Origin: Sulfuricurvum sp.
GTDB lineage: Bacteria; Campylobacterota; Campylobacteria; Campylobacterales; Sulfurimonadaceae
Assembly (NCBI GenBank): GCA_003245815.1
Contig: QKCD01000113.1
Coordinates: forward strand, 1 to 59,625
Reading direction: 5' to 3'
Length of the DNA stretch: 59,625 nt
A program made the position numbers and the translations under genes. The notes beneath the pieces were generated by a model that was not told the DNA's origin, did not search any database, and worked only from the letters and a program-made list of their open reading frames with translations. Positions 33,071 to 34,862 of this stretch are shown in pieces (position 1 is the first letter of the stretch; the number at the start of each line of letters is the position of its first letter).

Positions 33071-33790
33071 ATGACCCAGATCAGCAACCACGTTTTCTGC
33101 GACGACCATATCGCCGCCATGAAGCTTGACAACCGGCTTATGCCCAATCCCTATTACGACTATCCCTATCTTCTCATCGAAGGGTTCATTCCGCCGGAAC
33201 TCTGCGACCGAATCGTCGCCTACACCCGTGCCGCTTCCGACGCGGAGCAGGCAATGGTCAAAAGCACCCTCCACGGCGTCGTGGATCCCGACGTCGACGA
33301 GCAGATCCGCAAGACGGCCATCCACAAGCTGCCCGATGCACTGCTGGAGGAGTACCGGCGCGCCTTCCTGCGTAACCAGCAGCGGATCGAGGAGTTCTTC
33401 CACATCGCCCTGACCACCGCTACCGAAGTTCAGGCCTTGGAGTACACCGAAGGCGCGTTCTACATCAAGCATGCCGACGACTCCAACGAACTCCTCGACG
33501 CGGAGGGGGAGACGGCCGGTTTCGTACAGGTCGCGCCGCAGCGCAAGATTACGACCGTCCTCTTCGCCACCTCCCACGTCCCGGCGGGGGGCGACGCAAC
33601 CCACTTCAGCGGCGGGGAGCTCTGCTTCAACTACCTCTGTGACGCCGACGGCACGCCGATCGTCTTCCGGCCCCAGGCGGGGGATATGGTCGTCTTTCCG
33701 AGCAACCCCCTCTTCAGCCACGAAGTCCTGCCCGTGACAGCGGGCTACCGGCTCACCCTCGTGCAGTGGCACAACGGCATCACCGCCTGA
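33071..33790 (+). CDS. 2OG-Fe(II) oxygenase family protein
   Basis: 239 aa. Double-stranded beta-helix dioxygenase: iron-binding H-A-D (in IKHADDSNELL), a distal His in FSHEVLPV and the 2-oxoglutarate Arg in GYRLTLVQW. The N-terminal IEGFIPPELCDRIV resembles prolyl-4-hydroxylase-like P4Hc proteins. It couples 2-oxoglutarate decarboxylation to hydroxylation of an unknown substrate. Start 33071 follows AGGAAG; the in-frame GTG at 33023 has no properly spaced site. A hairpin lies in its leader. Confidence 0.87.
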   Translation: MTQISNHVFCDDHIAAMKLDNRLMPNPYYDYPYLLIEGFIPPELCDRIVAYTRAASDAEQAMVKSTLHGVVDPDVDEQIRKTAIHKLPDALLEEYRRAFLRNQQRIEEFFHIALTTATEVQALEYTEGAFYIKHADDSNELLDAEGETAGFVQVAPQRKITTVLFATSHVPAGGDATHFSGGELCFNYLCDADGTPIVFRPQAGDMVVFPSNPLFSHEVLPVTAGYRLTLVQWHNGITA

Positions 33791-33832
33791 TGCCGCCGCG
33801 ATATTACGACTGCAATTTTAAAAAAATCGGTA

Positions 33833-33838
33833 TATAAT
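33833..33838 (+). promoter_or_regulatory. -10 element upstream of the structured RNA candidate
   Basis: TATAAT in an A/T-rich context. Transcription from about 33845 would read through the candidate RNA and on towards the 82-aa gene. Confidence 0.5.
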
Positions 33839-33975
33839 TTCTTACTCAGATAGACGGCCCGATTTCTGCAAGAAACGCCTGTGAGTTCATTACGGAATGC
33901 CGCTCGGTGTTCCCCGGTTTTTTTCGGCTGTGTTTGATACCTGCGATCAAACGTTTCCTGACCCCAGGATCATAG

Positions 33976-34163
33976 TAGAACCCAACATGAACACCCGAAA
34001 GGATGGCCGTGGGCACAACCGCCCAGGCCCTGCCGGCCCAGAGCCCGCCCCTTCGGGAACAGGAAAGCGCACCGCACCCTACGGCAACCGCCGCAGCGGT
34101 GTGCTTGGCACCTTTGCAGCAGACGCTCCCGGAGCCGTACCGTCCATCCCATGGCGGGTTCTA
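33976..34163 (+). ncRNA. candidate structured RNA, class unknown
   Basis: About 188 nt with a closed, multi-branched fold. The ends pair as TAGAACCC (33976-33983) with GGGTTCTA (34156-34163); inside that CATG (33986-33989) with CATG (34150-34153); then GGATGG (34001-34006) with CCATCC (34144-34149), all nested. Interior hairpins: TGGGC/GCCCA (34010-34025), CCCG/CGGG (34044-34057) and a 10-bp stem AAGCGCACCG/CGGTGTGCTT (34065-34074 with 34097-34106) capped by CGGC-AACC-GCCG. I do not find motifs of RNase P, tmRNA, SRP RNA or any riboswitch I know. It could be a 6S-like RNA, a cis leader of the next gene or a new class. Confidence 0.45.
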
Positions 34164-34180
34164 AAAACACCATATTTCTA

Positions 34181-34186
34181 TATAAG
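34181..34186 (+). promoter_or_regulatory. -10 element of the 82-aa gene
   Basis: TATAAG, 20 nt before the ATG at 34206, giving a short leader with GAGG. If active, the small gene is transcribed independently of the RNA candidate. Confidence 0.4.
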
Positions 34187-34205
34187 TTTGTTTATCGAGG
34201 ATCCG

Positions 34206-34454
34206 ATGAAAATTTCTGATTTGGTATTGGAAATGGAACTGAACGGCGTCGACGAGGCGGATATCGCCGAGATCGTAACCCTGTGCCACGCCAAAGGCTT
34301 GAACAGCGAAATGATTGACGAAGAGCTTGTCAAGCGTGGCTACGAGAAAATTTTCACCGTCGACTACGACGGCTACGAAGGCTACGACGACTGGGAAGAC
34401 GACGAGTACAGCACGATCGAAAAATTCCCCCACAAACAGCACTACCGGGAGTAG
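34206..34454 (+). CDS. small acidic protein of unknown function
   Basis: 82 aa. The N-terminal about 50 residues look like a small helical domain (KISDLVLEMELNG, then MIDEELVKRGYEKIF); the C-terminal part is Tyr/Asp-rich (YDGYEGYDDWEDDEY). No family recognised. ATG 34206 follows GAGG; an open frame extends upstream to 33897 but through the structured RNA region without coding character. It is 6 nt before the SnoaL-like gene, so the two form an operon. Confidence 0.75.
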   Translation: MKISDLVLEMELNGVDEADIAEIVTLCHAKGLNSEMIDEELVKRGYEKIFTVDYDGYEGYDDWEDDEYSTIEKFPHKQHYRE

Positions 34455-34460
34455 GGAGTA

Positions 34461-34862
34461 ATGGACAACAAGGAACTGCTCAGCGCCTATTACGAGATGT
34501 GGAACGACCACGATTTCAGCAAAGCCGACCGGCTGCTCGATTCCGACGTCCGTTTCCACGGTTCCCTGGATATCGTGGCCAACGGCATCGAGGGGTTCAA
34601 GGAGTACGCCGCCATCTTGATGACCGCCTTCCCGAACCTCTACCACGCCGTGGAGATCACCGTGCATGAGAACGACAGGGCTGCCGCCTATGTCACCTAT
34701 ACCGGGACACACGAGGGACCGCTATTCAACTACAAGCCCTCGGGTAACCGTATCTGCTACTCCGGCGCATCGTTTTTTCATTTCCGCAACGGGAAGATCG
34801 CCAGTATCAACGTGCTCGGGGACCTCAACGCCCTGCACAAACAGCTCAGCAACGACGCCTAG
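34461..34862 (+). CDS. SnoaL-like (NTF2-fold) ester cyclase family protein
   Basis: 133 aa, single NTF2-like cone fold. Typical segments: [49 protein letters not shown] and a C-terminal [14 protein letters not shown]. Family members cyclise polyketides or serve as small enzymes or ligand-binding proteins; no substrate can be assigned. Second gene after the 82-aa protein (6-nt gap, GGGAG start signal). Its 3' end overlaps the convergent glycerophosphodiesterase gene by 4 nt. Confidence 0.82.

Follow-up and report, generated by a model that had tools for sequence, protein, structure and literature searches.

Comparison with related genomes indicates that the conserved structured RNA at this locus is a stretch of about 114 nt (33843-33956) lying just before the closed, multi-branched fold originally predicted at 33976-34163 of the window, the 59.6-kb stretch of Sulfuricurvum DNA analyzed here. 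The claimed closed fold does not itself appear to be a conserved RNA. On the same comparison, it belongs to an insert of about 200 nt, GC rich and specific to this lineage, within a candidate cis-regulatory leader. A testable, conserved, covarying leader, specific to one operon in free-living Campylobacterota of the sulfur-oxidizing type, replaces a striking fold that is not conserved.

Layout of the locus

The intergenic region has the predicted length of 415 bp. It is preceded by a 2OG-Fe(II) oxygenase gene and followed by a gene for an 82-aa protein, which has a good Shine-Dalgarno sequence, and then by a SnoaL-like gene. The features discussed below are the following.

33791-34205: intergenic region, 415 bp
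33833-33838, plus strand: TATAAT, the putative -10 element of the leader promoter, assigned by sequence; relatives keep GAGTATAATTTC(T/C)TACTCA
33844-33886, plus strand: H1, the 5'-terminal hairpin, with an outer stem of 33844-33848 (ACTCA) and 33882-33886 (TGAGT)
33856-33858 (GGC) with 33877-33879 (GCC), plus strand: inner stem of H1
33894-33913, plus strand: H2, hairpin GGAATGCC-gctc-GGTGTTCC, a terminator-like scan match with the U-run after it
33914-33931, plus strand: CCGGTTTTTTTCGGCTGT, conserved U-run and then GGCUGU box, near-invariant in the alignment
33932-33952, plus strand: H3, hairpin GTTTGAT-acctgcg-ATCAAAC, with covariation
33956-33969, plus strand: H4, small hairpin TCCTG-accc-CAGGA; relatives have a hairpin unrelated in sequence at the same place
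33970-34180, plus strand: lineage-specific GC-rich insert, boundaries approximate, holding the fold 33976-34163 and 14-nt imperfect terminal inverted repeats
34197-34200, plus strand: GAGG, putative Shine-Dalgarno sequence of the small gene, assigned by sequence; TTTATCGAGGATCCGATG is conserved
34206-34454, plus strand: 82-aa gene behind the leader, encoding three predicted helices and an acidic tail
34461-34862, plus strand: SnoaL-like gene (PF07366)

Within 33843-33956, the leader comprises hairpins H1 and H2, the U-run, and the GGCUGUGUUUGAU hairpin H3. Relatives share, in order, GAGTATAATTTCTTACTCA, the ACTCA..TGAGT hairpin, a second hairpin, the U-run with GGCTGTGTTTGAT, its partner ATCAAAC, a small hairpin, and then TTTATCGAGGATCCGATG; all of these parts are present in the window, at 33833-33970 and 34191-34208. 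The TATAAT, expected about 140 nt upstream of the fold, was found 138 nt upstream, and about 20 relatives have it at the same site ahead of the leader. The Shine-Dalgarno block is identical in one relative (L033) and similar in two more (L034 and L080). A separate promoter had been proposed for the downstream small gene; a consensus scan, which misses promoters lacking a -35 box, found none.

Of 150 relatives, 35 encode a homologue of the 82-aa protein, as do 66 of the 228 genomes of the family; in the relatives, the homologues begin at the same methionine as the 34206 start. The SnoaL gene adjoins the 82-aa gene in most relatives, a conserved pairing, and probably follows it as second gene of one operon. 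The 82-aa family has no Pfam or NCBIfam assignment, and its similarity to RecX_HTH2 is weak and limited to 2 of 18 members. An AlphaFold model shows three helices (pLDDT, 66), and a PDB search returned no match at an E value of <1. Across the family, the acidic tail is rich in Asp and Tyr and the gene is paired with a SnoaL-like gene.

Conservation and covariation of the leader

We built a covariance model, R1, from a 12-sequence alignment of 33843-33956. Searching 228 family genomes with R1 recovered the 12 sequences used to build it (85 to 105 bits) and 4 further genomes (39 to 44 bits). Each of the 16 strong matches immediately precedes the 82-aa gene, and no genome has more than one of them. 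Similarly, the U-run and GGCUGU box occur once per genome, at the 82-aa gene, in leader-bearing genomes. The weaker R1 matches that were inspected at other sites appear to be chance, and several fall inside coding sequence; one match in another family (G308; E value, 3e-5) is probably chance as well.

Across the 16 sequences, 94.4% of cells in the leader pairing are paired, compared with 28 to 40% for slid versions, and both sides have changed in 13 of 23 pairs (0 of 500 shuffles). The outer stem of H1 is 100% paired, and its inner stem shows GC, AU, and CG types. All four inner pairs of H2 have changed on both sides; the H2 hairpins of relatives differ in sequence yet remain paired, closed by GUC(A):(U)GGC. 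In H3, 99% of cells are paired and four pairs carry compensatory changes. The 16-sequence alignment had been fitted to the structure, and H3 was therefore also read directly, without gaps. This reading shows compensatory changes among GUUUGAU/AUCAAAC, GUUCGAU/AUUGAAC, GUUCGGU/AUCGAAC, GUUUAAU/GUUAAAC, and GUUUAGUA/UACUAAAC. H4 has no conserved sequence; spacer hairpins at its position in 21 relatives are more stable than shuffles (summed P < 1/300).

The leader thus holds a conserved position between the promoter and the start codon of one gene, and its base pairs covary. No Rfam family matches the leader window, and a literature search found no description of this leader. Folded alone, the conserved leader of the window (H1 to H3, 126 nt) is barely better than shuffles (z, -0.94), so that its support is comparative, not thermodynamic, and a search by energy would have passed it over. 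In many Sulfurimonas-like relatives, the 82-aa gene sits behind a different leader, indicating that the H1 to H3 leader is not essential to this gene. A second possible structured leader of the 82-aa gene, TAGTTGCTTTTATGC ... ATTAATCCAC..GTGGA ... TATTTGTTAAGAGGGCAAATATG, is seen about 140 nt before the start codon in five same-family homologues (L094, L101, L102, L103, and L109).

The insert and its fold

The box and the start codon are 278 nt apart here versus 45 to 78 nt (median, 67 nt) in 23 relatives. No insert DNA was found in 100 relatives and 228 family genomes, apart from a 32-nt chance match, and searches of plasmids, phages, and IMG/VR gave no match. Covariation among homologues of the fold was to have been the test of the original prediction; there are no homologues at all in the genomes searched, which leaves the functional status of the fold to be judged by energy.

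The inverted repeats and hairpins of the reported fold are present in the sequence. Two of its three nested helices, TAGAACCC/GGGTTCTA (33976-33983 and 34156-34163) and CATG/CATG, form a 14-nt arm that is 86% complementary; the third, GGATGG/CCATCC, has a pair probability of 0.01 even in isolation. The inner 10-bp stem is borne out by a strong hairpin of about 9 to 10 bp starting at 34067 (pair probability, 0.93 to 1.0 over 9 pairs). The isolated sequence 33976-34163 has a minimum free energy of -82.5 kcal/mol and a z score of -3.82; all 200 shuffles are less stable, and a z score of -3.8 was not reached by any of 400 random 188-nt stretches from the window. However, the end repeat alone is not rare: among the 14-nt inverted repeats in the window that span 150 to 230, 57 have 12 or more pairs, and 13 of these have 8 contiguous outer pairs.

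The predicted meeting of the two ends does not persist in context. In the full transcript, predicted to cover 33846-34208, the outer closing helices, whose pair probability is near 1.0 in isolation, drop to 0.0, as 33918-33931 (the U-run and GGCUGU box) pairs with 33991-34003 instead (-129.8 kcal/mol versus -125.3 kcal/mol for the closed form). Forcing closed ends costs 4.5 kcal/mol. This modeled difference does not exceed the error of the model, and the transcript may adopt either the closed insert or the pairing of box and insert. The conserved box is nearly complementary to 33991-34003, a match that may be accidental or may interfere with the leader.

In our view, the insert is most likely tolerated rather than functional and probably does not constitute a conserved functional RNA in its own right. 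It may have originated as a MITE-like remnant, as a local expansion, or as an artifact of assembly, the genome being fragmented into 133 contigs, with 81% completeness and 6% contamination. That the insert is a nonautonomous MITE-like mobile element or its remnant, with the inverted repeat as its end and its stability stemming from a palindromic build, is a possibility that we regard with some doubt. The imperfect terminal repeats, the GC content (66% versus 50% in the preceding leader), and the clean presence or absence against relatives are all consistent with such an element. However, the 81%-complete assembly holds no second copy, where several copies would be expected of a MITE, and no collection searched holds a related one. 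No target-site duplication was seen either (no direct repeat of at least 10 in 33780-34260 and none by eye at the insert ends), and inverted repeats of this kind are, as noted, common in the window.

An independent structured noncoding RNA of about 188 nt with closed ends is considerably less probable. Its case is the isolated fold, with z scores from -3.8 to -4.1 that no control window matched and firmly paired closing helices. Against it stand the absence of homologues from the family genomes, the source genome, plasmids, phages, and IMG/VR, the loss of closure in the predicted full transcript, and the lack of any promoter or terminator found on the plus strand within the insert. Further, the minus strand folds as strongly as the plus strand (-96.3 kcal/mol; z, -3.1), and stability therefore cannot tell whether either strand is functional, or which. 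Of the two options first offered, an independent RNA or a long leader, the latter fits, although the conserved leader is the upstream part (33843-33970), outside the claimed fold.

An open frame of 185 codons (33897-34454) crosses the leader and the insert in frame with the 82-aa gene. A coding insert, either as an N-terminal extension of the 82-aa protein open from 33897 or as a small minus-strand open reading frame, is nevertheless very improbable, as neither translation has a homologue in 60 genomes or a family match, the Shine-Dalgarno sequence and the start at 34206 are conserved, and relatives use the same methionine.

A divergent 6S RNA at 33976-34163, suggested by size and closed ends only, can be dismissed with near certainty: neither RF00013 nor RF01069 matches in the window at the gathering threshold or in the region at an E value of ≤10, and the source genome has its own RF01069 copy (73 bits) upstream of purD on another contig (L145 1262-1390, contig C6). 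In Campylobacter and Helicobacter, the region preceding purD, for which a purine riboswitch had earlier been suggested, encodes the 6S RNA (PMC3847290). Of 11 Campylobacterota regions tested upstream of purD, 10 score above the gathering threshold for RF01069. RF00013 gave a single subthreshold match across 60 relatives, directly upstream of purD; in G064, a weak RF00013 match falls at the same purD-upstream place as RF01069. From this shared place and the one relative matching both models, we infer that RF01069 probably represents the 6S RNA of Campylobacterota. As originally stated, the fold is of no recognizable class. Across the window, no Rfam family exceeds its threshold, and the region yields no credible match at an E value of ≤10.

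Proposed function and relation to known systems

The region is probably a 5' untranslated leader acting in cis on the mRNA of a small operon. Transcription would start about 6 nt after the TATAAT at 33833, giving an mRNA with the leader followed by the coding sequences of the 82-aa three-helix protein and the SnoaL-like protein. The first 114 nt or so would form H1, H2, the U-run with GGCUGU, and H3, followed by H4, and would act in cis.

Our preferred mode, put forward tentatively, is attenuation at H2 and the U-run, which together are terminator-like and at which read-through could be switched. The GUCA that closes H2 through pairing to UGGC includes part of the 3' strand of H1 (the shared GU of GAGUCA), so that H1 and an extended H2 would compete and could switch read-through. 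A terminator scan matches H2 (33894-33913), with CCGG between the stem and the U-run; the gap from H2 to the U-run is 2 to 4 nt and often ends in GG, an arrangement ill suited to an intrinsic terminator. A test did not support sequestration of the Shine-Dalgarno sequence by the 5' strand (native versus swapped pairs, P = 0.59).

In the source genome, about 200 nt of GC-rich, self-complementary sequence would have been gained as an insert between H4 and the Shine-Dalgarno sequence. Its self-pairing would fold it away and keep the leader and the ribosome site close, and it would therefore probably be tolerable. A more elaborate reading, in which the leader is a true regulatory switch of the 82-aa/SnoaL operon and the folded 200-nt expansion rewires its output through the 33918-33931/33991-34003 pairing, seems to us improbable.

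Energy and conservation point to different elements here: a z score of -3.8 marked an unconserved insert, and one of -0.9 belongs to the conserved RNA alongside it. Comparison, not energy, found the real element.

Like MITE-like palindromic elements and other lineage-specific insertions, the insert is self-complementary, has terminal inverted repeats, and occupies a site that is empty in relatives; it differs from MITE-like elements in being single copy, without a target-site duplication or related copies found. The RF01069 purD motif (the Campylobacterota 6S RNA) resembles the leader as a structured RNA directly upstream of a coding gene in the same genome, but it sits at another locus, purD, and has no match in the window. 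The closest likeness is to structured cis-regulatory leaders (Rfam Cis-reg; candidate motifs of PMC2864571). The leader of the 82-aa gene differs from these in matching no Rfam entry and in having one copy per genome, at one operon. It resembles them in that conserved, covarying hairpins lie between the promoter of one gene and its start codon, within one bacterial lineage, and is plausibly a new candidate structured cis-regulatory leader.
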